From NCBI RefSeq assembly GCF_014698235.1, contig NZ_JACJSP010000015.1:1-64000 (forward strand): a stretch of 64,000 bases of DNA. Reading direction: 5' to 3'. A program made the position numbers and the translations under genes. Below, in pieces: positions 9,192 through 23,031 of this stretch. The notes under the pieces were generated by a model. The model ran no database searches. It had not been told where the DNA came from and worked only from the letters and a program-made list of their open reading frames with translations. Source of the stretch: Limnothrix sp. FACHB-406 (lineage in GTDB: Bacteria; Cyanobacteriota; Cyanobacteriia; CACIAM-69d). Within the stretch, counting starts at the first letter, position 1, and each line of letters opens with the position of its first letter.

Positions 9192-10439
9192 ATGGTAAAA
9201 CCACGCTTTTCCTGGAGTCGGCGGCAACTCCTGGGACGGGGATTGGCGATCGCCGTTGGTGCAGGCCTGGGCCTGTGGCAAGGTCAGCGTTGGTGGGGTG
9301 ATCGCTCCGAAGCCGCTGCCCTGGCGGAGGCGATTCCCTTTTGGGGCCCTCACCAACCGGGCATCGCCACACCGGATGTGGCCGCTGCTTTGGTGGTGGC
9401 TTTGGACGTGACTGCACGCGATCGCCAGGAACTGACTCAACTGTTTCAAACCCTGACCGATCGCATTGCCTATTTGATGGCTGGTGGTGCCCTGAAGCCC
9501 TTGGATCAGCGCTATCCCCCCAGCGGCTCCGGTATTTTGGGCGACGAATTTCCCGCCGATCGGCTCACGGTCACCGTTTCCGTGGGGGCCTCTCTGTTTG
9601 ACCAACGCTACGGCCTGGCCGCCGCCAAACCCCGTCATTTGACGGAAATGCCCAATTTCCCGAACGATCGCCTCGATCCCCAGCTTTGCCATGGCGACTT
9701 GCTCTTGCAGTTTTGCGCCAACCACGAAGAAACCAACATCCACGCCCTGCGCGACATCCTGAAGCAATTGTCGGGGTTGGTGGTTTTGCGTTGGCAAATG
9801 GCCGGTTTCCAACAGCCCGATCGCGACCCCCATCCCCGCCGCACCACCGTGCGCAACCTGTTGGGGTTCAAGGACGGCACGGTGAACCCGAACCCGAAAG
9901 ACGAGAAGTTAATGAACCGATTGGTTTGGGTTTCTCGTAACAGCCCAGAACCGGCCTGGACGGTCGGCGGTTCCTATCACGTGGTGCGAATTATTCGGAT
10001 GTTTGTGGAGTTTTGGGATCGAACTCCCTTGGATGAGCAAGAAGCGGTGATGGGGCGATCGCGCAGTAGCGGTGCGCCCTTGGGTTACCGCCACGAGGAA
10101 GAGATTCCAAACTATCAACGGGCTGGCAAAGCAATTCCCCTCGATTCCCATATTCGGTTGGCAAACCCGCGCAATCCCGGCATGGGAGAACATCAAATTT
10201 TGCGCAAAGGATTCCACTACTCCCGCGATATCGATCGCGCCGGTCAGTTGGACATGGGCTTGCTCTTTTTGGCCTTTCAACAGGATGTGAAAACTGGCTT
10301 TGAAGCCATTCAAAATCGGCTGAATGGTGAACCCTTGGAGGAATACATTAAGCCGATCGGGGGCGGCTATTTCTTTGCCCTGCCTGGCGTGCCCGATCGC
10401 GACAGCTACTTGGGTCAGTCTCTGTTGCAATCGGTGTAA
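9192..10439 (+). CDS. efeB: Tat-exported DyP-type heme peroxidase / deferrochelatase EfeB
   Basis: EfeB is a periplasmic heme peroxidase of the DyP family that oxidises ferrous iron for EfeUOB transport and has been proposed to release iron from heme. The 415-residue product begins with a twin-arginine signal (SRRQLLGRG, residues 9-17, followed by a hydrophobic stretch). The DyP signature GxxDG is at 225-229 (GFKDG, catalytic Asp228). It lies 78 bp after the EfeM/EfeO gene, so the two are probably co-transcribed. The stop-codon region is tandemly duplicated: ATCGGTGTAAT occurs at 10430-10440 and again at 10445-10455. Confidence 0.92.
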   Translation: MVKPRFSWSRRQLLGRGLAIAVGAGLGLWQGQRWWGDRSEAAALAEAIPFWGPHQPGIATPDVAAALVVALDVTARDRQELTQLFQTLTDRIAYLMAGGALKPLDQRYPPSGSGILGDEFPADRLTVTVSVGASLFDQRYGLAAAKPRHLTEMPNFPNDRLDPQLCHGDLLLQFCANHEETNIHALRDILKQLSGLVVLRWQMAGFQQPDRDPHPRRTTVRNLLGFKDGTVNPNPKDEKLMNRLVWVSRNSPEPAWTVGGSYHVVRIIRMFVEFWDRTPLDEQEAVMGRSRSSGAPLGYRHEEEIPNYQRAGKAIPLDSHIRLANPRNPGMGEHQILRKGFHYSRDIDRAGQLDMGLLFLAFQQDVKTGFEAIQNRLNGEPLEEYIKPIGGGYFFALPGVPDRDSYLGQSLLQSV

Positions 10440-10516
10440 TGGCGATCGGTGTAATTTAGGCAGCGCAGCTTAAGGCGCATTGACCCAACCAATCGATCAA
10501 ATCAATCGATCGAATG
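10430..10516. repeat. short tandem duplications at and after the efeB stop
   Basis: ATCGGTGTAAT is repeated at a 15-bp period (10430 and 10445), the first copy containing the efeB stop codon. A second pair with 13-bp units lies at 10491-10503 and 10504-10516 (AATCGATCAAATC, AATCGATCGAATG). Confidence 0.6.
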
Positions 10517-10556
10517 AATTAATTAAGCAGGGTGATTCAGGCCGAATTGGACAGAG

Positions 10557-11573
10557 TTAGATCGAATAATGCAGTGGAAACGCCTTTGCTCCCTTGGGTT
10601 TGACGTAAACCCGTTGCTGGGGCGAAAGATCTAATTCATCAAATCGTTCCCGTGTCAGATGGGCCGTCATCACCTGCCCATCATCCAACACCAATTCCGC
10701 CTGAATTTCCCAACCCAAATGCACCAGCCGACTAACGCGGGCCGGAGCCGTGGCCTTGTCCGGTGCTAGTTCAATCACCACATCATGGGGCCGCAGGAAA
10801 ATTTCCGGCTCCGTGGAATCAATGCCGTGAGCCTGGAAGATTTGGGAATCGCTGGGCAGAATGTTCACCGGCCCAATGAACTTCATCACAAAAGGCGTGG
10901 CGGGGCGATCGTAAATTTCAGCGGGCGAGCCAATTTGTTCAATCCGCCCATGATTCACAATCACGATTTCATCGGCCACTTCCATCGCTTCCTCTTGGTC
11001 GTGGGTCACAAAAACCGTGGTCACATGCACTTCATCGTGCAAACGCCGCAACCAGGCCCGCAAATCCTTGCGCACCCTCGCATCCAATGCCCCAAAGGGT
11101 TCATCCAACAGCAACACCTTCGGTTCCACAGCCAACGCCCGCGCCAGGGCCACCCGCTGCCGTTGGCCGCCGGACAGTTGGGAGGGGTAGCGATCGCCCA
11201 ACCCCGAAAGCTGCACCAACTCCAGTAGCTCATCGACGCGCTGGCGCACCTTGGCGCGATCGGTCTTTTGTAATTCCAACCCAAATCCAATGTTTTGGCG
11301 CACGTTCATGTGCTTAAACAGGGCGTAGTGCTGAAACACAAAGCCGATGTTGCGCTCTTGTACGGTTTGGTCGGTGGCATCTTTGCCGGTGAGCCAAATT
11401 CGCCCGCTGTCCGGCTTTTCGAGGCCGGCAATCAACCGCAACAGGGTTGATTTACCGGATCCCGACGCACCCAACAGGGCCACCAGCGAACCGGACTCTA
11501 AACTAAGGCTGACGTTATCGACGGCCAGGAAATCGCCAAAGCGTTTGGTGACGTTTTCTACGACGATGCCCAC
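10557..11573 (-). CDS. cysA: sulfate/thiosulfate-type ABC transporter ATP-binding protein (CysA-like)
   Basis: The product is an importer ATPase of about 338 residues from a GTG at 11573; an upstream ATG at 11609 would add 12 residues not typical of the family. It shows Walker [10 protein letters not shown], signature LSGGQRQR, Walker [13 protein letters not shown] and the switch His in [15 protein letters not shown]. The C-terminal part (about 235-338) is a TOBE-like regulatory domain, as in CysA. No sulfate permease or sulfate-binding protein gene is near, so its partner subunits must be encoded elsewhere. Distinguishing a sulfate from a molybdate ATPase by sequence alone is not secure, and modA/modB at 50.9-52.4 kb lack an ATPase. 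Confidence 0.85.
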
Positions 11574-11690
11574 GATGCCGCTGCTCCCGATGCGAAAGGT
11601 TGACCCCATTATGCAATGGATAGGTCGCCGATCAATGCCCTAAACCCCGCTTTCTCGGTCGTGTTACCGGGGTTTTGTCCGGTTCGCAGC

Positions 11691-12668
11691 CTAGTTTTCT
11701 CCTGCCGCGTCGGCTGATCGCCCCAGTCGATCGAGCCATTGGCGCAAGAGGGCATTCACTCGATCGGGCGCTTCATCGTGGGGACAATGACCCGCTCCCT
11801 CGATCGGCACAAATTCCAAACGCGGTGAACAACCGACAAATTGTTGGGAGAGGGCGAAGGGAATGAGTCGATCGCGCGTGCCCCACAACAGGAGCACCGG
11901 AATTTGGATGTGGTTCAACACCCGCCGAATGGGGGGCGAAAACCGGCTGCTGGCCATGGCGCGGATAATTTGGGCAAAGGTGCGGGCCGCCCCCCGATCG
12001 CGGGCCGGCTCTGTCAAAATTTCCACCAACTCCGAATCGATCGCTCCGGGATCTCCCCAAGCCAAGCCAGCCCAGCGCCGCACCACGGCCGGCCGGCGCA
12101 CCCCATAAAAAACAGCCTGCAACAGCCAGGGAGAAGCCACCAAAGCCTCCAGCCCCAGCACCAGCGGGCGCAGGGCCCTGGGAATAATTTCCTCGCGCAT
12201 GGATGGATCGGGCAAGCTAATGGCCACAGCCCCACAAACCATTTCGGGGTAGCATTCCGCCACCGTGAGGGCAATGGCCGAGCCGATCGAGTTGCCCACC
12301 ACCACCGCCGGAACCCCAATGAAGGTTTGCCAAAACTCCCGCACCTGCTCCGCCCAAAAGTAAGCATCGTAGGCCACCGATGGTTTGCAGGATGCGCCAA
12401 AGCCGACCAAATCAAGGGCATAAACCGGGTGGTGAGTGGCCAGGGCTTCCATGTTGGAGCGCCAATAGCCGATCGAGGCTCCAAACCCATGCAGCAACAA
12501 AATGGGCGGCCCGCCATTCACCGCCGGGCCGGGCAGGAAACTGTAGCGGGTTGACCAACCGCGCCAAACCCAATCACGCCGATCGCCCACGCGATCGACC
12601 CACGATCGCGCCGGGCGTTGAGGGACTGGGGGTTGCGGGTCGGTTGTGGCCAGTGGAGTTGCGTTCAT
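11691..12668 (-). CDS. alpha/beta-fold hydrolase
   Basis: This is a soluble alpha/beta hydrolase of about 325 residues; the ATG at 12668 is preferred to the one at 12734, which adds 22 unconserved residues. Visible are the oxyanion-hole segment LLLHGFGASIGYWR, the nucleophile elbow GNSIGS, an acidic residue in WGTRDRLIP and the catalytic His in GAGHCPHDEAP. The overall pattern matches the cyanobacterial/chloroplast hydrolases related to pheophytinase-like and haloalkane-dehalogenase-like enzymes, but the substrate cannot be told. It is divergent from infC and 118 bp upstream of the cysA-like gene on the same strand. Confidence 0.85.
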   Translation of the reverse strand: MNATPLATTDPQPPVPQRPARSWVDRVGDRRDWVWRGWSTRYSFLPGPAVNGGPPILLLHGFGASIGYWRSNMEALATHHPVYALDLVGFGASCKPSVAYDAYFWAEQVREFWQTFIGVPAVVVGNSIGSAIALTVAECYPEMVCGAVAISLPDPSMREEIIPRALRPLVLGLEALVASPWLLQAVFYGVRRPAVVRRWAGLAWGDPGAIDSELVEILTEPARDRGAARTFAQIIRAMASSRFSPPIRRVLNHIQIPVLLLWGTRDRLIPFALSQQFVGCSPRLEFVPIEGAGHCPHDEAPDRVNALLRQWLDRLGRSADAAGEN

Positions 12669-13136
12669 GGGGTGCTGTGGCCGAATACTTTTGATCGAGC
12701 GGCCTTGATGGTCGAATGGCCTCGATCGAGGCACTGGATCACAAAGACCATCATGATTCAGTTGCCTGGATCAAATACTAAGAAATCTTGCGAGTTTATT
12801 GACATCCTTAGCTGCACCTTAGCCGATCAAACCCCCTATTTCCAAGGCGCGATCGCCCGAAAAGTCCCTCATCCCATCCACCCCTGGCACAGAGTAAAAT
12901 AGGTGGCAGTCTCTGTTGTTTTGGGCCAAGTCTGTCCCGCAGCAGCTAGACGCTGAATGGTTCAATACCGTTCGACACCATTCAATTGATTGCTCGATCG
13001 TGCTAAGACGGAAGCAAATCGCCTCAATCGCCCCATGCGATCGGCTGTTTCCCGCCCTAGCAACGCTGGCCCAGCCTAAACAAACTTCAAAAGCTCCATT
13101 CACAGCGATCGCGCTACCCCAGAATCCATTTCACCA
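12669..13136. other. intergenic region and probable long leader of infC
   Basis: The 468 bp between the hydrolase start and infC contain no likely gene. A possible -10 box TAAAAT at 12895-12900 would give infC a leader of about 230 nt. Inside the leader is a hairpin, TGAATGGT (12954-12961) with ACCATTCA (12977-12984), 8-bp stem and 15-nt loop. No known riboswitch was recognised. Confidence 0.45.
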
Positions 13137-13679
13137 ATGCCACCAGTCATCGACAAACGCAAACCCGCGAATCTTCCCCCCATCAACGAAAACATCCGCT
13201 TTCCCGAAGTGCGCCTGATTGATGCAGACGGCGCACAGGTTGGAATCATCCCCACCTACGACGCACGCCGCATGGCCGAGGAAAAGGAACTAGACCTCGT
13301 GCTGATTAGTGACAAGGCCGTGCCGCCCGTTTGCCGGATCATGGACTACGGCAAATATAAGTTTGAGCAAGAAAAGAAGGCGCGCGAGGCCAAGAAGAAG
13401 CAGCATACGGCTGACGTGAAAGAAGTCAAGATGCGCTACAAAATCGACCCGCACGATTACCAAGTGCGGATCCGCGCCGCTGAACGCTTCCTCAAGGCCG
13501 GCGATAAAGTGAAGGCTACGATCACCTTCCGGGGGCGGGAAATTCAGCACGCCCACCTGGCGGAAACCTTGCTCAATCAAATGATGCAGGATCTGCAAGA
13601 AGTGGCTGAGGTGCAGCAAGCGCCGAAGCGGGAAGGCCGCAATATGATGATGCTGCTGTCACCCAAGCGGGAAAAGTAA
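13137..13679 (+). CDS. infC: translation initiation factor IF-3
   Basis: IF-3 binds the 30S subunit, prevents 50S joining and checks the start codon and initiator tRNA. The 180-residue product has the N-terminal domain opening ([14 protein letters not shown]), the linker rich in Lys and Ala (about residues 75-98) and the C-terminal domain with [14 protein letters not shown] and [15 protein letters not shown]. Length and motifs are normal. The start codon is ATG; the rare AUU start typical of E. coli infC is not seen here. The usual partners rpmI and rplT are not adjacent. Confidence 0.97.
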
Positions 13680-13864
13680 CCTTCGGTAAGGATGGCCAGG
13701 GGTGAAAACTGGGTGATGGCACACGGGGGCCCCTGGGCCCAACCGTGATCATTAGATTGACGAGCCGTCCATGGTTTTGTCACCCTTGTGTGGTGGGGGG
13801 CGTGCGATCGCGCGCCCCTCTGCCCTTGCCCGTCCGCCCACTCCATTTGATTGACCGATCGCCC

Positions 13865-16800
13865 ATGGATGCCAACTATCAGGGAACCCGAGGCGGCGCA
13901 TGGCAACAGGTGCTGCGCTGGCTGAACCTTCGGCCCGAAGAAGGGGAACGCACTTGGTTGATGTTCGCCTTCTACACCACCACCACCGTGGGGTTGAGTT
14001 GGCTGGATAACAGCACGGCGGGTCTGTTTGTCGATCGCTACGGGGCCGTGGGCCTGCCGCTCATTTATTTGGGCAACGCGGCGATCGGGGCCTTGATGGG
14101 CTTTGCCTATTCCCTGATGCAGAAGGTCATTCCCCTGCGTCAGACGATCGTCTTGATTCCAATTTTGATTGCCCTGCCCCTGGTGGCCTTTCGGGCGGGA
14201 CTGGGCATTGAGCACCTGGCGGCGATCACGGTTTTTGTGATGCGGCTGTGGCTGGATGTGACCTATGTGCTCAACGACATCAACACCTCCATCACCGCCA
14301 ACCAGCTTTTTAACATTCGGGAAATTAAACGCACCTATCCCCTCATCAGCAGTGGTGTGCTGGTGGCGGATGTGATCAGCGGTTTTTCGCTGCCGGTGCT
14401 GTTGGATTGGGTGGGGCTGCCGAATGTGTTGCTGTTGGCGGCCGCCACGATCGCCTTTGGGGGCGGCATTTTGTTTTATCTGGGCCGGGCCTACAGTCAG
14501 GCCTTCCCCGATTCCCCCAGTCGCTACACCGAAGAGTCCCAGGCGGATTCCAATCGCCGGCTGCAGGGGCCCCTGCGCAGCTATGCGGGCTGGCTGGTGG
14601 CCTTTTTCATGCTGGCGCAGGTGTTGTTTCTGCTGGTGGAATTTCAGTTTTTTGATCGACTGGAGTTGCAGAGCAAAACGACGGCGGGCACGGGCACCGG
14701 GGGTGACGTGGCCAGCGAGATTGCCAGTTTTTTGGGCCTGTTTAACGGGGTGTTGGGGTTGGCGGAGTTGCTGACCCAATGGCTGGTGTCCAGTCGGGCG
14801 ATCGAGCGGATTGGCCTGTTTCGATCGGCGGCCATTTTGCCCACGGCGGTGCTGATTTCCGGGGTTTTGGCCCTGTTGAGCATTCCGCTAGCGGCCCATG
14901 GATTTTCGGGCGCGTTCCTCGGGGCGATCGGCCTGAAGTTCATGGATGAGCTGCTGCGCTACACCCTCTTTGCCAGCACCAACCCAGTGCTGTTCCAGCC
15001 CATTCCCGACAGCGTGCGGGGCAGCATCCAAGCCCGGGTTCGCGGTGTGTTTGAGTCGCTCTCCACGGGGCTGGCGGGGCTGCTGATTTTGGGGACGGTG
15101 TTTGTTTGCAAGCACTTTTTACCACCGGACTACCTGGAAGCCCAAAGCTGGATTGTGCTGGGGGCGATCGTCATTTTGGCGGTGCTCTGGGTGGTGGCGG
15201 TGTTGGGGTTGCGATCGCGCTACATCAGCCTGTTGGTGATCAGCGCCGAGCGGGGCCGGCTGGGCACGATGGATGTGGACTCTTCCACCCTGCGCCAGGC
15301 GGTGATTGAGGCCCTGGTGCAACCAGGAACCACTCCCGAAGACAAGCGATCGTGCATCGAACTCCTGAGCCGCATTGACCCCGAGCGGGCCAGTGAAGTG
15401 CTGGCTCCCCTGCTGACCGGGTTTCCGCCCGTGCTGCAAAAGCAATGTTTGGAAGTGATGCTGGAGCGGCCCCAAACGGACTATCTCGCGCAAGTGCGGG
15501 CCCTGATTGTGCAGCAACCACCGCCGGAGGTGCTGGCGGCGGCCCTACGCTACGTCTGGATTACGGAATCCGATCAGGATGTGCGCCATTTGCAGCCCTA
15601 CCTGCGGCCGGAGGTGGATCCCATGGTGCGGGGTACGGCGGCCTCGTTAATCATGCGCCGTGGATCTGCAAGCCAAAAGGCCGAAGCCACCAACAGTTTG
15701 CGCCGAATGCTCACCAGCGGCGATGTGCGAGAGCGGGTGATGGGTTGTCGGGCCTTGGGCGAGGCGGCCTATCTCCAGGCCCTGCGGTTGTATGTGCCGG
15801 ATTTGCTTCAAGATTCATCGGTAGAGGTGCGTTGCGCCCTGCTGGAAGTGATTGCCTCGGCCCGGCTGGAAGACTATTACCCGGCCCTGTTGCGGGGGCT
15901 GAATTACAAGAGCACCCGGGAATCGGCCCTGCGCGGGTTGACCAAGCTGGAGCATGAGGTGCTGCCGATGCTGTTGGAAATGGCGGAGGACTGCCATAAG
16001 CCGGATCTGATGCGGATGCAGGCCTGGGGGGCGATCGGGCGCATTAGCACCTCAGAAGCCTTGGATATTTTGGTGTCGCGGTTGTTGGTGTCCTGGGGAG
16101 CCACCCGCCAAACGATTATGCGCACCCTGCTGAAGCTGCCCGATGACGCGGGGATTGAGGGCGTGTTGCGGCGGATTGGGCGAAGTGGGGTGGAAATGGC
16201 GATCGACCAGGAGTTGCGCTACGTGGGGCAACTGGCGGCGGCGCTGGTGGATTTGTCGGAAGCGTCCCTCACGGGGCGGGAGGCGGATCTGCTGCGCCAG
16301 TCCCTGCGCGATTCGATTCAGGATGCCCATGAACGGCTCTTTTCCCTGATGAAGTTCCTCTATCCGATCGGGTCGATTCAAGCGGCTTCCTTTAATTTGC
16401 GATCGGGGTCGCGGGAGTCCGTGGCTCGGGGCTTGGAGATTTTGGATAATACGCTGGATATTCCCAGTAAGCGGGCGGTGTTGGGAATTTTTGACTCCGC
16501 CAACGATCGCGATCGGCTGGCGGCGGTGAATGAGCTGATGCATTACCAACCCATGCCCCCGCGCGATCGGGTGCGGCGGCTTTTGGATTTGCGCTATTTC
16601 CTGTCCGATTGGCCCTTGGCCTGTTGCTTCCATGTGGCGCGGTCTTTGCGCTGGAGCTTGACGACGGATCAAACCCTGGCCTGTTTGCGTCACCCACGCG
16701 GCTTTGTGCGGGAAGCGGTGCTAGCCTATTTGGAGTTGGCTTCTCAGCGGATGTTGGCGGAAATTTTGCCCCGGATGGTGCATGATCCCGATCGCCTGGT

Positions 16801-16882
16801 TCTGGCCCAGGTGCAACATCTGGCCCAGGGGTTGGGCGTTGCCCTGCCCACCAAGTCCGCCGAGGCTTCGGGCCCTGCCTAG
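13865..16882 (+). CDS. nucleotide-transporter-like/MFS membrane protein fused to HEAT repeats
   Basis: Counting from the ATG at 13865 the protein has about 1005 residues; an upstream in-frame start at 13745 would add 40 residues without family character. The N-terminal 460 residues hold about 12 membrane helices of the MFS type, resembling the Npt1/Npt2 ADP-ATP translocase group (TWLMFAFYTTTTVGLSWL, VTYVLNDINTSITANQLF). From about residue 480 to the end the sequence is soluble and made of helical HEAT-like repeats (EALVQPGTTPEDKRSCIELL, VRERVMGCRALGEAAYL and similar). A cyclic-nucleotide-binding protein gene follows 209 bp downstream on the same strand. The likely picture is a membrane transporter with a large cytoplasmic regulatory scaffold; the substrate is unknown. 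Confidence 0.82.
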   Translation: MDANYQGTRGGAWQQVLRWLNLRPEEGERTWLMFAFYTTTTVGLSWLDNSTAGLFVDRYGAVGLPLIYLGNAAIGALMGFAYSLMQKVIPLRQTIVLIPILIALPLVAFRAGLGIEHLAAITVFVMRLWLDVTYVLNDINTSITANQLFNIREIKRTYPLISSGVLVADVISGFSLPVLLDWVGLPNVLLLAAATIAFGGGILFYLGRAYSQAFPDSPSRYTEESQADSNRRLQGPLRSYAGWLVAFFMLAQVLFLLVEFQFFDRLELQSKTTAGTGTGGDVASEIASFLGLFNGVLGLAELLTQWLVSSRAIERIGLFRSAAILPTAVLISGVLALLSIPLAAHGFSGAFLGAIGLKFMDELLRYTLFASTNPVLFQPIPDSVRGSIQARVRGVFESLSTGLAGLLILGTVFVCKHFLPPDYLEAQSWIVLGAIVILAVLWVVAVLGLRSRYISLLVISAERGRLGTMDVDSSTLRQAVIEALVQPGTTPEDKRSCIELLSRIDPERASEVLAPLLTGFPPVLQKQCLEVMLERPQTDYLAQVRALIVQQPPPEVLAAALRYVWITESDQDVRHLQPYLRPEVDPMVRGTAASLIMRRGSASQKAEATNSLRRMLTSGDVRERVMGCRALGEAAYLQALRLYVPDLLQDSSVEVRCALLEVIASARLEDYYPALLRGLNYKSTRESALRGLTKLEHEVLPMLLEMAEDCHKPDLMRMQAWGAIGRISTSEALDILVSRLLVSWGATRQTIMRTLLKLPDDAGIEGVLRRIGRSGVEMAIDQELRYVGQLAAALVDLSEASLTGREADLLRQSLRDSIQDAHERLFSLMKFLYPIGSIQAASFNLRSGSRESVARGLEILDNTLDIPSKRAVLGIFDSANDRDRLAAVNELMHYQPMPPRDRVRRLLDLRYFLSDWPLACCFHVARSLRWSLTTDQTLACLRHPRGFVREAVLAYLELASQRMLAEILPRMVHDPDRLVLAQVQHLAQGLGVALPTKSAEASGPA

Positions 16883-16963
16883 GGACTGGGGTGGCTCCGG
16901 GTTGATTGAACTCTGCCCGCGAAGAACCCCCAGCCCAGCACTCGCCACTCCCACAAAGCGGGA

Positions 16964-16969
16964 TAAGAT
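16964..16969 (+). promoter_or_regulatory. possible -10 element before the cyclic-nucleotide-binding gene
   Basis: TAAGAT in the gap between the transporter-HEAT gene and the gene at 17092 could start a separate transcript near 16976. No strong -35 was found, so read-through from upstream remains possible. Confidence 0.2.
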
Positions 16970-17091
16970 AGCGGGGTGTTGAGCCTTCATCATGTCGTTT
17001 CACCTCCAGCCTTGCCCTCGCGGTGCATCAACCAGCTTTGAGTCATTGACCGCCTGGGGCCTGCTGCTTGACCCACCGCGCCTAGCCGCTC

Positions 17092-17580
17092 ATGCTCACT
17101 AGCGTCGATCGCCTGCTCTTTATCCGCGAAGTCCCGATTTTTAAAGAACTGCGCGACGAGTTCCTCGTGCGGTTGGCTTCCTGCATGGATGAGTTATCGT
17201 TTTCTGCCAAGCAAACGATCTTCACGCAGGGGCAAGAGGGGCGATCGCTCTACATTGTGGTGTCGGGACGGGTGCGGGTGCATCTGAACGATCGAGATTT
17301 GGCCCATCTAGGGAAAGGATCCTTTTTTGGGGAAATGTCGCTGTTTGATGCGGAACCCCGATCGGCCTCCGTCACGACGATCGAACCCTGCGAATGTTTG
17401 ATGCTGACCCAACAGCAGCTCTACGACGCGATCGACGAAACTCCCGATATTGCGGTGAATGTGATTCGGCTGCTCTCTCGTCGGATTCGGGAGCTGAATC
17501 AAAAACTGAATGCCAGTCGCGAATTGGACGGCAAAGGATCCGGATCAACCCTCTTACCGTCCAATTCCCAAAACAGCTAG
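17092..17580 (+). CDS. cyclic-nucleotide-binding domain protein (no DNA-binding domain)
   Basis: The 162-residue product is essentially one cNMP-binding beta-barrel. It has the conserved GQEGRSLYIVVSGRVRV strand pair and the phosphate-binding cassette FGEMSLFDAEPRSASV, including the Arg that holds the cyclic phosphate, so ligand binding is plausible. No helix-turn-helix follows: the C-terminus is a short helix and a Ser/Asn-rich tail. It therefore is not a Crp-type regulator but a soluble sensor or regulatory subunit. Its position directly after the transporter-HEAT gene on the same strand suggests that it regulates or binds that protein. Confidence 0.88.
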   Translation: MLTSVDRLLFIREVPIFKELRDEFLVRLASCMDELSFSAKQTIFTQGQEGRSLYIVVSGRVRVHLNDRDLAHLGKGSFFGEMSLFDAEPRSASVTTIEPCECLMLTQQQLYDAIDETPDIAVNVIRLLSRRIRELNQKLNASRELDGKGSGSTLLPSNSQNS

Positions 17581-17628
17581 GGCTAACCGCGCCCGAGCCT
17601 AAACAAAGCGCCCAGTGAAGATCTTGAA

Positions 17629-20139
17629 CTACAGGGCGATCGCCCCGCTAATGGCCTCAGTGCTGGCCAGTTTCACCAGCCGATCGCCCTGATCTTCGCG
17701 GCCCAGGACGGGGAAATCGGCCCAAGCTAAGCCGCCCGATCGACCCGTGTTGGTGCTGATCCACCACAGGCCGCGATCGGCCACCGGAGCCATGGCCGCC
17801 AGCCGATCGCCCCGGGCTAGGGTCAGGAAATTGCTGCCCGCTTCGCCCAATCCATTCAGACGCAGGCGATCCACCCGTAGTTGCTTACCATAGCCCCGCT
17901 CGGTGATCAGGGCCAGGGTTTGCCCCGGGCTTAAGGTGCAACAGCCCAACAACCGTTCCGATCGGCTCACCTTCGTGGCCAAGGCTCCTTGGGTGTTGCG
18001 GTTGCTGACCGGTAGGGTAACCGCGTCCAGGGGCACAATCATGCCTCGGCCCATGGAAGTGGCCACCACCAGCCGATCGCCCTCGGATCCCAAGGCGGCG
18101 GCCACCAACTGATCGCCCTCCTTCAGCTTCAGGGCCACCAGGCCCCGCCCGGTAATTCGCTCAAATTCCCCCAGGGCCAAGCGCTTCACCCGCCCTTGCT
18201 GAGTGAGCACAATCAAATCCTGGGGCGGATTGGGGCGATCGGCAAAGTCCAAGGACAACACGGCCACAATTTCCCGGGCCAGGGCCGCCACCGAATCATC
18301 CGCACTTTGCAGGGCGGTCGATCGGGCCGATTCCGGCAGGAGGGTGACCAGGGGCAATCCTCGGGGCGCTTTTTTGCTAATGGGGGGAATGTCGCCCACC
18401 CGCAGGCTATAGGCCTTGCCCGATCGGGTGAGCACTAACAATTCCCGATCGGTTTGCGTATTAAAGGTCTGTACGGCGGCCTCGTCCCGTTCCGTCAGCT
18501 CGCCCGGCGTGGATTCGCTGCGCCGTCGCTTGGGCGGAACCCGCCGCACATAACCCCGATCGCTCAGTTCCACGATCGCCGGTTCCGGAGCCGTGGGAGC
18601 CGCCACTGTTGGCGATTCCGTGGTCGCCTGCACCGTCGCTTCATCCAAAATTCGGGTGCGGCGCGGATCGGCAAATTTCTTTTTGAACGATCGCAGGTCT
18701 TTTTTCAGGAATTTCAGCCGTTCTTGTCGATCGTCCAACAAATTCGACAGCTCTGCTAGGCGCGATCGCAGGGTTTCCCGTTCCTCCAACAGCTTTTGGC
18801 GCTCCAGTCCCGTCAGTCGCCGCATGGGCATTCCCAACACCGCCTGGGCCTGGGAATCGCTCATGCCCAGCCGCACGGCCAACTGTGCCTGGGCGGTGGT
18901 TCCGTCCGGGGCAAACCGCAAAATCTCGATCGTTTCATCCAAATGATCCAGGGCCAGCACTAACCCTTCCACCAACTCCAATCGATCGGCCACCTGCTCG
19001 CGATCGGCCGTCAATTGCTTGGTCAGGGTTTCTTCCCGGAACGCCAAAAAGACTTGGAGGGCCTGCTTCAGGCTCAACTGCTGGGGCTGGCGATCGACAA
19101 TGGCCAGCAGAATCATGCCAAAGGTGGACTGCAAATCCGTTTGGCGATAAAGCTGCTTCAAAACCGCCGCCGGTTCCGCCTCCCGCTTCAGTTCAATGAC
19201 AACCCGAATTCCGTCGCGATCGCTCTCATCCCGCAAGTCGCTGATGCCCGTCAGCTTGCCCAGGTTCACCAACTCGGCCATTTTTTCTAGCCAACTGGCC
19301 TTGTTGGTTTGGTAGGGCAACTCCGTCACCACGATCGCCGTCCGTTTTTGGCGACCCCGCCCGCCGGGAATTTCCTCCACATGGGTCACCCCCCGCAGGA
19401 CAATGCTGCCCTTGCCGGTGCGGTAGGCATCCTCAATGCCCTTGGTGCCGATAATTTCGCCCCCGGTGGGGAAGTCGGGGCCCGGAATCAGTTTCCACAG
19501 TTGCGCATCGGTTAAGTCTGGGCGATCGATCAGCGCCACCAACCCATCCACTAACTCGCCCAGGTGGTGCGGGGGAATATTGGTGGCCATGCCCACGGCA
19601 ATGCCCGAACAGCCATTCAGCAACAGCAGGGGCAACTGCACCGGCAACACCACCGGTTCCTGTTGGGAACTGTCGAAATTGGGCGCAAAGTTAACGGTGG
19701 CCTCGCTCAGGTTTGCCAGGGCTGAAACCTGGGCAATTTCTGCCAATCGGGTTTCCGTATAGCGCATGGCGGCCGGTGGATCGTCGTCGATCGAGCCAAA
19801 ATTGCCATGGCCCTGCAACAGGGGATAGCGCATGGAAAAGCTCTGCACCATCCGCACCAGCGCGTCATAAACCGCCTTGTCTCCGTGGGGGTGATATTTC
19901 CCCAGCACATCCCCCACCACCCGGGCACATTTGCGAAAGGGGCGATCGGGCGTTAACCCCAACTCATGCATCGCGTACAAAATCCGCCGATGCACCGGCT
20001 TGAGGCCATCCCGCGCATCCGGCAGGGCCCGGCCGACGATCGTACTCATGGCGTATTCCAAATACGATCGCTGCATTTCCCCATGCAGCGAAGTCGGAAT
20101 GATTTGCCCAGAGCCAAGAAGGTTGAGTTGCGCGGTCAT
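17629..20139 (-). CDS. parC: type II DNA topoisomerase subunit A (ParC/GyrA paralogue)
   Basis: The product (836 residues from the ATG at 20139; 842 from 20157) is the DNA-cleaving subunit of a type IIA topoisomerase. The breakage-reunion core is complete, with the active-site Tyr at about residue 127 ([10 protein letters not shown]) and the quinolone-region motif [13 protein letters not shown]. The C-terminal beta-pinwheel is present ([30 protein letters not shown]), but no GyrA-box such as QRRGGKG is visible in the first blade; that place holds [14 protein letters not shown]. This favours a ParC-like or second GyrA-like copy over the true gyrase subunit. It neighbours no gyrB/parE. parC is given as the better guess. 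Confidence 0.85.
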
Positions 20140-20289
20140 CAGGCGAGTCCAGTCCAAAAAACGGCCAAGGGGTGAGCGAAATTAAAAATCGCAAGAAAGA
20201 CGAGGATTAATCAGCAGTCGCTTGCACGGAAAGAGCAATGAGGCATAGCATAACAACTAGACAGCCTCGCGTTTGGCGCAACTTGCTCG

Positions 20290-20691
20290 ATGAAAACGGT
20301 TTTGATCGTTGAAGACGACCCAATTAATGCACGCGTCTTCTCCAAAATTTTGACCAAGCGGGGCGGCCTGGCCGTGCAGCACACAGAAGATGTGGAAGAG
20401 GTCGTGAAGATTGCCCGGGCGGGTGAAGCGGACATCATCTTGATGGACGTTTCCTTGGCCCACAGCACCTATGAGGGCAAATCGGTTGATGGCATTAAAA
20501 TCACCCAAATGTTGAAGGGGGATCCGGCCACGGCCAAGCTGCCCATCATTTTGGTGACGGCCCACGCCATGGAAGGCGATCGGGAAAATTTCCTGTCCGA
20601 AAGTGGCGCGGATGACTACATCTCTAAGCCCGTGGTCGATCACCAAGCCTTTGTGGACAAAATCGTCAGCCTGCTGCCCACGGACGCTTAG
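20290..20691 (+). CDS. stand-alone response regulator receiver protein
   Basis: The 133-residue protein is a single CheY/DivK-like receiver domain with no output domain. The acidic pair is E8-D9-D10, the phospho-acceptor Asp53 (LMDVSL), the conserved Thr90 (LVTAHA) and Lys113 (ISKPV). An extra stretch of about ten residues (AHSTYEGKSVDG) follows the phosphorylation site, longer than in CheY. The gene is convergent with the ABC exporter gene, 96 bp away, whose C-terminal tail resembles histidine-kinase dimerisation domains; a physical link is possible but unproven. No kinase gene is adjacent. Confidence 0.92.
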   Translation: MKTVLIVEDDPINARVFSKILTKRGGLAVQHTEDVEEVVKIARAGEADIILMDVSLAHSTYEGKSVDGIKITQMLKGDPATAKLPIILVTAHAMEGDRENFLSESGADDYISKPVVDHQAFVDKIVSLLPTDA

Positions 20692-20787
20692 GGCGGGCGA
20701 TCGACGGCTGGAGAGATCGTTCACGGGTCGCCAATTGCTGTTTGGGCCATCTTCCGTTGGGAGGGTGGCCCATTGCCCGATCGGCCC

Positions 20788-23031
20788 CTAGGCTTGATTG
20801 CCCGTGGCTTCTAGGGATTCGAGGATGTTCAAAATTTCCAGAGCGGCAGCGTAGGTATCGTTCAAAATCCGTTCGTCCTCTTCGGGATCATCGGTCAAGT
20901 CATCCAAAATGAGCCGCAGGGCCCCAATAATTTCGCTGAGGCGCGATCGCACCTGATAGGAAATTTGGGCAAAGGTTTCATAGCGATCCATGCCCCCACC
21001 TCCCGAGTCGCTGTAGAACGATCGCTGAACTTGCAGCGCGTCTTCAAACAACTCCATGGTGCTCAACATCCGAATGGCCGATCGATAGGATTCGCGCAGG
21101 AGTTCTTGGCGTTCCTCGTTGCTGTCCACCAGGTCATCCACCAGCAATTGCAGGGAGCCGACGGTGATGTTGAGCCGGGTGCGAATTTCGTAGGAGGTGC
21201 GGTTGAAGGTTTCGCTGGCGGTGGCCATCGGTTGCTGCACCCGGGCATTGCCAAACTGCATGGTGTAGAGCTTGGCGTAGGCTCCGCCCTTGGCCAGCAG
21301 TTCCGCATGGTTACCCACTTCCACCACGCGCCCCTTGTCCAGGACAGCGATTTGGTGGGCCCGCTGCACGGTTGAGAGGCGGTGGGCAATGGCGATCACG
21401 GTGCGATCGCGGCTGAGGGTTTCGATCGCCTCCTGCACCAACCGCTCAGACACCGTATCCAAGGCGCTGGTGGCCTCATCCAAAATCAGAACTGGGGGAT
21501 TTTGCAGCAAGGCCCGGGCGATCGCCAGCCGCTGCCGTTGCCCCCCCGACAACATCACACCCCGATCACCAATGGTGGTTTCCAGGCCGCGCGGCATTCG
21601 CTCAATAAATTCCATAGCGTTGGCCAATTTGGCGGCGGCAATCACCTCCTCATCGGTGGCCGTGGGCATGGGGTAGGCGATGTTATTGCGGATGGTGTCG
21701 TTAAACAGAAAGGTTTCCTGGCTGACAATGCCCAAGGATCGCCGGAGCGATCGCACGTCAAAGCTGCGTAAGTCTTGACCATCGATGAGGATCCGCCCCG
21801 CCGTGGGATCGGCAAACCGAGGCACTAGCTCCACGAGGGTTGATTTCCCGGCTCCGGAGCTGCCCACCAGGGCCAAGGTTGTGCCCCGGGGCAAGGTGAG
21901 GGTGATGTCTTGGAGTGTCAGCTCGCTGCTGCCTTCGTAGGCAAAGCTGAGATTTTCAAACCGAATATCCTGGTGCAGTCCCGTGAAGGGGGTGGAACCA
22001 TTGGCCAAAAAGGTCTTGTTGCTCGATCGCAAAAAGTCTTCCACCACATCCACACTGGCGGCCGTGTTGGCCAACTGGCCCCGCAACCGGTTGAGCTGGG
22101 CCACCAGGGGCAGCAGCCGAAACAGCAGCGTCAGATAGGTTAGCAGCACCGTGGACAGGGCACTGAGCTGATCCGCAAACAACCAGCGACTGATGCCCAC
22201 GATCGCCATTAGCATCACCACGCTCACCACTTCCGTGACTGGGGCGATCGCGATCGAGTTGGCCTGGGATTTAAACTCCGCGGCCTCCCGGGCCTTGGTT
22301 AGCCGCAGCATTCGATCGAACTCCCGCGCCTCCATGGCAGCCGATCGCACCAACCGCATCCCGCCCAAAATCTCCAGCAGGGCCACGGAATAGTCCTTGG
22401 AGGTTTGGGACACATCCTTCCCCAGTTGGCGGGACTGGTTGACATAAAGCTGATTAATCCACACCACCCCCGCAAACAACACCGTGGCCACCACCGTCAG
22501 TTGCCAAGACAGCAGCAACAACAGCCCCACCATCACCAGGATCGAGACCACGGTGGCCACCAATTGCAGCAAATTGGCCACCGTGGCCGAAACCCGCCCA
22601 ATTTCATTCCCCAGGCGGTTGTTGATGTCGCCCACACGGGTGCGAGCAAAGTAGCTGAGATTCACATCCAGCAGCAACTGAATGGCGTTCATTCGCAGGT
22701 CAGCCGCCAGCGATCGCTGCAAAATTCCGACGGCCAAGGCGCTGAGGTAGGTGGCCAGGTTTTTGAGGGCGATCGTGCCCACCACCGCCACGGCCATGGC
22801 GATCGGTTGGTAGGCCGCGGGCAGTCCCTCAAAGGGCGAAAAAAGTTTGCGCAAAATGGGCGGCCCGCCGGACAGCACCATTTCCTGGCCCAAAAAGCGC
22901 AGCACCACTGGCACAATCAGCGCCGTGCTTACCCCGTTGAACAGGGCCCCCGAGAAGCCCATGATCATCGTCCAAGCGGCTTGTCGGGGATAGCGCCGAA
23001 TCAGTTGCCAAAGGAATTTGCGTCGGGCCAT
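20788..23031 (-). CDS. ABC exporter (membrane plus ATPase) with tandem DHp-like C-terminal tail
   Basis: The 747-residue protein is a fused half-exporter of the MsbA/HlyB/HepA type: six membrane helices in about residues 1-325, then an ATPase with Walker A GSSGAGKST (about 388-396), signature LSGGQRQR, Walker B VLILDEAT and H-loop AIAHRLST. The usual protein ends near residue 595. Here about 150 residues follow, made of two similar units starting SYEIRTRL (Tyr614) and SYQVRSRL (Tyr692), 78 residues apart, each continuing with helices ending in ...LLVDDL/LILDDL and an acidic stretch. Each unit resembles a histidine-kinase DHp H-box (SHELRTPL) with His changed to Tyr and Pro to Arg. A glycosyltransferase gene lies 222 bp upstream on the same strand, so lipid-linked or polysaccharide export is a reasonable guess. 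Confidence 0.88.
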   Translation of the reverse strand: MARRKFLWQLIRRYPRQAAWTMIMGFSGALFNGVSTALIVPVVLRFLGQEMVLSGGPPILRKLFSPFEGLPAAYQPIAMAVAVVGTIALKNLATYLSALAVGILQRSLAADLRMNAIQLLLDVNLSYFARTRVGDINNRLGNEIGRVSATVANLLQLVATVVSILVMVGLLLLLSWQLTVVATVLFAGVVWINQLYVNQSRQLGKDVSQTSKDYSVALLEILGGMRLVRSAAMEAREFDRMLRLTKAREAAEFKSQANSIAIAPVTEVVSVVMLMAIVGISRWLFADQLSALSTVLLTYLTLLFRLLPLVAQLNRLRGQLANTAASVDVVEDFLRSSNKTFLANGSTPFTGLHQDIRFENLSFAYEGSSELTLQDITLTLPRGTTLALVGSSGAGKSTLVELVPRFADPTAGRILIDGQDLRSFDVRSLRRSLGIVSQETFLFNDTIRNNIAYPMPTATDEEVIAAAKLANAMEFIERMPRGLETTIGDRGVMLSGGQRQRLAIARALLQNPPVLILDEATSALDTVSERLVQEAIETLSRDRTVIAIAHRLSTVQRAHQIAVLDKGRVVEVGNHAELLAKGGAYAKLYTMQFGNARVQQPMATASETFNRTSYEIRTRLNITVGSLQLLVDDLVDSNEERQELLRESYRSAIRMLSTMELFEDALQVQRSFYSDSGGGGMDRYETFAQISYQVRSRLSEIIGALRLILDDLTDDPEEDERILNDTYAAALEILNILESLEATGNQA

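Follow-up and report, generated by a model that had tools for sequence, protein, structure and literature searches.

A conserved cyanobacterial gene pair encoding an NTT-HEAT membrane protein and a separate cyclic-nucleotide-binding protein, with a possible regulatory link between them

Organization of the gene pair

The window analysed in this work is a stretch of 64,000 nucleotides from the filamentous cyanobacterium Limnothrix sp. FACHB-406, located on contig C15 of a genome of 4.5 Mb in 38 contigs. It carries a gene for a 1005-residue membrane protein, in which a nucleotide transporter (NTT)-type domain continues into HEAT repeats, and a gene for a separate 162-residue protein consisting of a cyclic-nucleotide-binding domain (cNBD). 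In the genomes of the phylum, the two genes were nearly always both present or both absent, also where they lie far apart, and they may encode the two subunits of a regulated membrane carrier. The features of the pair are as follows.

13865..16882, plus strand: whole NTT-HEAT gene, 1005 residues, stop included
13865..15250, plus strand: NTT-fold (MFS-like, 12-helix) membrane domain, residues 1-462, from PF03219, AlphaFold model, structure match and profile
14318..14341, plus strand: REIKRTYP core motif, residues 152-159, corresponding to the canonical NTT stretch EAKRFYAL
15281..16834, plus strand: HEAT-repeat solenoid, residues about 473-990, from HEAT_2, AlphaFold helix pairs and profile
17092..17580, plus strand: stand-alone cNBD gene, 162 residues, from PF00027, no helix-turn-helix
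17326..17370, plus strand: phosphate-binding cassette of the cNBD, residues 79-93 (FGEMSLFDAEPRSAS), with invariant positions

The NTT-HEAT gene probably starts at the ATG at 13865, judging from the beginning MDANY shared by close relatives; the open frame extends upstream to a GTG at 13745. The counterpart from Limnothrix sp. CACIAM 69d (L144) was 99.6% identical to the window protein. The NTT-HEAT and cNBD genes are separated by 209 bp, within which no promoter-like site was present and terminator-like sequences were counted at chance level.

With an NTT domain followed by HEAT repeats and a cNBD gene immediately downstream, the pair belongs to the NTT-HEAT family of Major, Embley and Williams (2017, PMC5381601). 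In its available portions, that paper describes cyanobacterial NTT-HEAT proteins, the genes of which are followed within several nucleotides by a cNBD gene in some genomes, and fused NTT-HEAT-cNBD chains forming a clade reported in cyanobacteria of sections I-III. It proposes that ATP uptake is adjusted by cyclic AMP (cAMP), and states that, up to 2017, none of the cyanobacterial members had been characterised. The window pair shares with these proteins the domain order, the downstream cNBD gene in some genomes, the existence of single-chain fusions and the hypothesis of cAMP control. Both the arrangement and the idea of cAMP control are therefore already in print. The NTT-HEAT finding is repeated in the available part of a review (PMC6995639); in the literature searched, the term appeared in these two papers only, and no later characterisation of a cyanobacterial member turned up. 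Residue analysis, a co-occurrence count and rate co-variation are not reported in the available portions of PMC5381601. As far as our searches go, co-occurrence without linkage, the rate link between HEAT arm and cNBD, and the missing lysines described below are new.

Fold and family of the membrane domain

In a Pfam scan, the 1005-residue protein matched the TLC ATP/ADP transporter family PF03219 with 29.2 bits (cut-off 21). This model is insensitive for NTT-HEAT proteins, detecting 18 of 291 genomes of the phylum at E 0.001 although 57 of them hold a close orthologue. The score against TIGR00769 (NTP/NDP exchange transporters) was 20.3 bits, below the NCBIfam cut-off of 387.2; on sequence scores, the protein is thus far from the characterised exchangers.

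The AlphaFold model, built from an alignment of 44 rows, had a mean pLDDT (predicted local distance difference test) of 83.3 and a pTM (predicted template modelling score) of 0.56, and displayed 12 long helices in residues 24-462 followed by a helical solenoid that extends to around residue 990. Its best structure match was AtNTT1 (9j3l; Z 34.1, root-mean-square deviation 3.0, 417 residues aligned), followed by C. pneumoniae NTT1 (9j3n; Z 32.6); the first other MFS protein was SPNS2 (Z 25.4). This comparison scarcely tests the parts outside residues 23-468, and the PDB matches listed are uninformative on the HEAT region. A profile of the whole NTT-HEAT protein matched 27 PDB chains, in which AtNTT1 (9j3j, 1.9e-17) and C. 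pneumoniae NTT1 (9j3n, 1.4e-16) were the only transporters and nearly all others were HEAT-repeat proteins. With a profile of the NTT part alone, the values were 2.1e-11 (9j3j) and 1.6e-7 (9j3n). A phmmer search of PDB with a single NTT-HEAT protein returned zero NTT chains, which were recovered by the profiles. Alignment of 18 sequences revealed that R156, P159, R311, E362 and R385 of the NTT core are invariant, and that the two basic positions of REIKRTYP are K or R and then R in all of them. By predicted fold and profile-level ancestry, the membrane domain of the window protein is an NTT.

Substrate residues

According to the available text of PMC10654386 and PMC3306366, transport by AtNTT1 requires K155, E245, E385 and K527, with K155 needed for ADP binding and K527 for ATP binding. 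These residues were placed by counting letters on the PDB chains, where a single offset of 84 puts the four sites on K, E, E and K, and an alignment was made of 18 NTT-HEAT domains, C. pneumoniae NTT1 and a portion of AtNTT1. All 18 NTT-HEAT proteins had a gap at the counterpart of K155 and no lysine at that of K527, where T was mostly found. Likewise, none of the 18 had a lysine at the TKE position, and the second lysine of KGKAAID was replaced by Q in all. The E385 position was acidic in 18/18. So was the E245 position in this alignment, but its placement is uncertain, as other alignments put R127 or D138 there. The charged set K155/E245/E385/K527 of ATP/ADP translocators is thus incomplete in NTT-HEAT proteins, both lysines being gone.

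These data bear on the proposal of Major et al. that the protein exchanges ATP/ADP, or another nucleotide, across the plasma or thylakoid membrane, and that cAMP, reporting the ATP level of the cell, adjusts its activity. AtNTT1 (9j3j/l/m) and C. pneumoniae NTT1 (9j3n/o) share with the NTT-HEAT proteins a common fold and ancestry, an EAKR-like motif and two acidic positions, all of which speak for an exchanger, as does its having been proposed in the available text of PMC5381601. In contrast, AtNTT1 and C. pneumoniae NTT1 have neither HEAT arm nor cNBD, and the NTT-HEAT proteins are without the nucleotide-site lysines of these two. Since the binding lysines are absent in 18/18, exchange of ATP/ADP by the AtNTT1 mechanism is judged unlikely, and the substrate carried is probably other than ATP/ADP handled in the AtNTT1 manner; it may be a different nucleotide or a different kind of compound. 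The loss of two further lysines and the low TIGR00769 score also stand against an exchanger. Whereas the paper proposes ATP transport, the sequences aligned here lack the lysines that bind ATP and ADP, which makes the ATP-transport reading of NTT-HEAT doubtful and leaves the cAMP-tuned exchanger as a whole improbable. In view of the lysine loss, the name of the family should not be taken to imply ATP transport. A reading of the window made from its sequence only (the sequence-only reading) had called the protein nucleotide-transporter-like; this holds for fold and ancestry, but is weak for the substrate.

HEAT arm and cNBD protein

HEAT_2 was matched with 53.9 bits (cut-off 27.7), helix pairs ran across the HEAT region in the AlphaFold model, and the NTT-HEAT profile matched designed alphaRep HEAT proteins. 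The 162-residue protein matched PF00027 with 82 bits (cut-off 27.5), the sole Pfam model above cut-off; no helix-turn-helix model was found in the scan, and the chain ends shortly past the C helix. A DNA-binding regulator was set aside on the lack of a helix-turn-helix. The protein has in common with CRP/FNR family regulators the cNBD with its FGE...PRSAS cassette and the following helix; it differs from them in having no DNA-binding domain, and its proposed partner is a membrane protein. The cassette (FFGEMSLFDAEPRSASV) is intact. F79, G80, E81, P89, R90 and A92 were invariant in 22 aligned cNBD sequences, including two fused forms, and FGE and RSA were retained in all 19 cNBDs unlinked to the NTT-HEAT gene. 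Both the roughly 520 residues of HEAT-like repeats following the 12-helix domain and the isolated cNBD with an intact cassette, as seen by the sequence-only reading, were therefore confirmed.

Matches to class III nucleotide cyclases (PF00211) were found at 20 places in the Limnothrix genome; because of these matches, cyclic nucleotides are very probably made in the host cell.

Genome G021 was observed to have a lone cNBD (L096, 4925-5398) that shares about 50% identity with that of the window and is closely followed by a gene judged by eye to be cation-efflux-like. This type occurs in small genomes without NTT-HEAT.

Co-occurrence, loss and fusion of the two genes

Two samples were searched. 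Among 59 nearer relatives, 36 genomes gave NTT-HEAT matches at E 1e-3 and 36 gave cNBD matches at E 1e-25. Close orthologues (over 200 bits) numbered 34 for NTT-HEAT and 32 for the cNBD, and all 32 fell inside the 34. This count left out G015 and G048, with a degenerate NTT-HEAT and no cNBD at 1e-25, and G012, G021, G039 and G052, with a cNBD of 42-50% identity and no NTT-HEAT. Of the 34 NTT-HEAT holders, 26 had the cNBD gene next on the same strand and 6 had it at another place in the genome; in the other 2 it was not found. Spacing in relatives varied from a 17-bp overlap (L031) through 3 bp (L032-L034) to 1087 bp.

From the phylum, 291 genomes were drawn evenly, of which 62 matched NTT-HEAT at 1e-10 and 59 matched the cNBD at 1e-25. 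Left out were five NTT matches, G076 (a 60-residue remnant) and G061, G065, G072 and G090 (distant), and two cNBD matches, G021 and G039 (about 50% identity). After removal of these seven, close orthologues of both genes occurred in an identical set of 57 genomes; with nothing left out, 57 had both, 5 NTT-HEAT only and 2 cNBD only. The genes were adjacent in 33 of the 57, within 20 kb in 2 and unlinked in 22, 20 of which belong to one family. Joint loss was seen within pair-holding genera: G149 (genus g47) and G107 and G131 (genus g51) had neither gene, and their sister species keep both. In G076 the NTT-HEAT remnant still follows infC, the gene for translation initiation factor IF-3, and no cNBD was found at 1e-25. 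The conservation of the pair that the sequence-only reading called for is thus borne out, in 57 of the 291 genomes of the phylum and in 32 of the 34 NTT-HEAT holders among the relatives.

Fused chains were found in genomes G061, G065, G072, G090 and G085. In L085, L086, L087, L088 and L090 (1046-1083 residues) the NTT-HEAT chain ends in a cNBD with an intact FGE...PR cassette; in L089 (1036 residues) the terminal cNBD is degenerate. Named fused copies (L101-L103) came from metagenome-assembled genomes of Sericytochromatia or unclassified Cyanobacteria, whereas the available text of PMC5381601 places fused forms in sections I-III. No fused frame was seen in the sampled Cyanobacteriia (NTT-HEAT open frames up to 1070 residues), a sample that may miss the fused clade. 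Adjacency counts on loci retrieved with the fused query are biased, and these loci were left out of the frequency counts. Fusion in Sericytochromatia supports one functional unit.

The simplest alternative is that the two are unrelated neighbours, the cNBD being a free cAMP-binding protein encoded beside the NTT-HEAT gene by chance. The 209-bp gap, the failure to find shared-operon signals and the other lone cyanobacterial cNBDs, such as the one in G021, agree with it. Nevertheless, co-occurrence persists despite lost linkage, the genes are lost together and fused, and in some relatives they are 3 bp apart or overlap by 17 bp. We regard chance neighbourhood as very improbable.

The NTT-HEAT relatives observed at L091 1114-4317 (G015) and L092 6042-8411 (G048) are degenerate and lack the NTT core motif; the orthologous cNBD was absent from both genomes.

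Rate co-variation of the HEAT arm and the cNBD

Over the 51 loci that have all three genes, protein distances averaged 0.261 for the cNBD, 0.254 for infC, 0.461 for HEAT and 0.658 for NTT. Given infC, the partial correlation with the cNBD was 0.743 for HEAT and 0.545 for NTT. At 33 thinned loci, HEAT and cNBD were correlated given NTT (0.579, bootstrap 0.381 to 0.790), and the value for NTT and cNBD given HEAT was 0.071 (-0.126 to 0.253). A distant-gene set was assembled from 20 genomes (18 unlinked, 2 within 20 kb), one of which was left out for infC missing at a contig end. The 19 remaining genomes gave 0.586 (0.370 to 0.792) for HEAT-cNBD given NTT and 0.159 (-0.29 to 0.527) for NTT-cNBD given HEAT. 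Such co-variation of sequence distances agrees with a cNBD-HEAT contact without proving it, and the co-occurrence and rate data mark the HEAT arm as the place to seek contact.

These results would also suit an NTT domain that has ceased to transport and serves as a membrane-anchored receptor, the HEAT arm relaying the cyclic-nucleotide signal to other partners as in a transceptor-like scaffold. In favour of it, the HEAT part changes less rapidly than the NTT part, the co-variation with the cNBD is explained by HEAT, and the canonical substrate lysines are missing. Against this, the five invariant residues of the NTT core exceed the needs of a mere anchor, and a transport-dead receptor appears as improbable to us as the exchanger.

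Although a small accessory protein, the cNBD was observed to evolve about as slowly as IF-3.

Proposed mechanism

On balance, we lean slightly towards a two-subunit membrane complex, in which NTT-HEAT would be a carrier, probably of a non-ATP substrate, gated by cyclic nucleotide via a HEAT-docked cNBD. The NTT-fold domain would act as a secondary carrier in the membrane, and the cytoplasmic HEAT arm as the surface on which the cNBD protein docks. This protein would bind cyclic nucleotide from the class III cyclases of the cell; sitting differently on the HEAT arm in bound and free states, it would let the arm set carrier activity. In Sericytochromatia, the same regulator would be built into the same chain. 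What we infer is that the two proteins form a complex, that the cNBD binds cAMP or cGMP, that transport takes place and is gated, and that the substrate is not ATP. The proposal of the sequence-only reading, a scaffold with a separate cyclic-nucleotide subunit, gains partial support as a whole from the rate co-variation, the co-occurrence and the fused chains.

Several observations weigh against this complex. Lysine loss is no proof of lost nucleotide transport, as the E245/E385 counterparts and other basic residues persist. G032 and G058 carry NTT-HEAT with no cNBD detected, G032 being 8% contaminated and the G058 gene lying near a contig end, and in G317 the cNBD is intact although NTT-HEAT is interrupted next to a transposase gene. 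The 57-of-57 agreement ignores phylogeny and was reached by leaving matches out, and its Fisher value of 5e-62 is no real probability; the within-genus losses are more telling for pairing. Rate correlation is indirect, and infC, with distances of just 0.034 in the distant-gene set, is a weak control there. In the cNBD tree, which has long branches and one row from the Limnothrix genome itself (L194) of just 15 residues, fused and free forms were not separated. The model of a fused chain gave no aligned-error map or coordinates, and hence no view of docking.

The fuller claim, of a cyclic-nucleotide-gated NTT-fold secondary transporter that no longer handles ATP/ADP, has a detachable HEAT-docked cNBD and is common in filamentous cyanobacteria, is put forward tentatively, as a possibility that we hold with less than even confidence. 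If true, cAMP or cGMP signalling in these organisms would act directly on a membrane carrier, beyond transcription factors.

Neighbouring genes and other observations

The genes flanking the pair are as follows.

11691-12734, minus strand: alpha/beta hydrolase
13137..13679, plus strand: infC, translation initiation factor IF-3 (IF3_N/IF3_C Pfam), conserved upstream neighbour, not counted among the parts of the proposed complex
17629-20157, minus strand: gyrase A-type gene, convergent, after the cNBD gene

No Rfam matches were found within 10000-21000, and an RNA element in this region was set aside on that ground.

In G317, the NTT-HEAT gene was in two parts about 535 kb apart (L098, 5400-6307; L099, 4422-5869), and copies of the same transposase-like gene were located near both breakpoints. 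Programmed excision of the heterocyst type was set aside, as the same transposase-like gene lies beside both halves; direct repeats of at least 8 bases were not found in the short junction windows compared.

At 52 of the 63 loci with enough upstream sequence, infC immediately precedes NTT-HEAT and has the same orientation. This was also the case in 19 of the 20 genomes with a distant cNBD, the remaining one being cut at a contig end. Linkage of infC to NTT-HEAT is thus better kept than that of NTT-HEAT to the cNBD.

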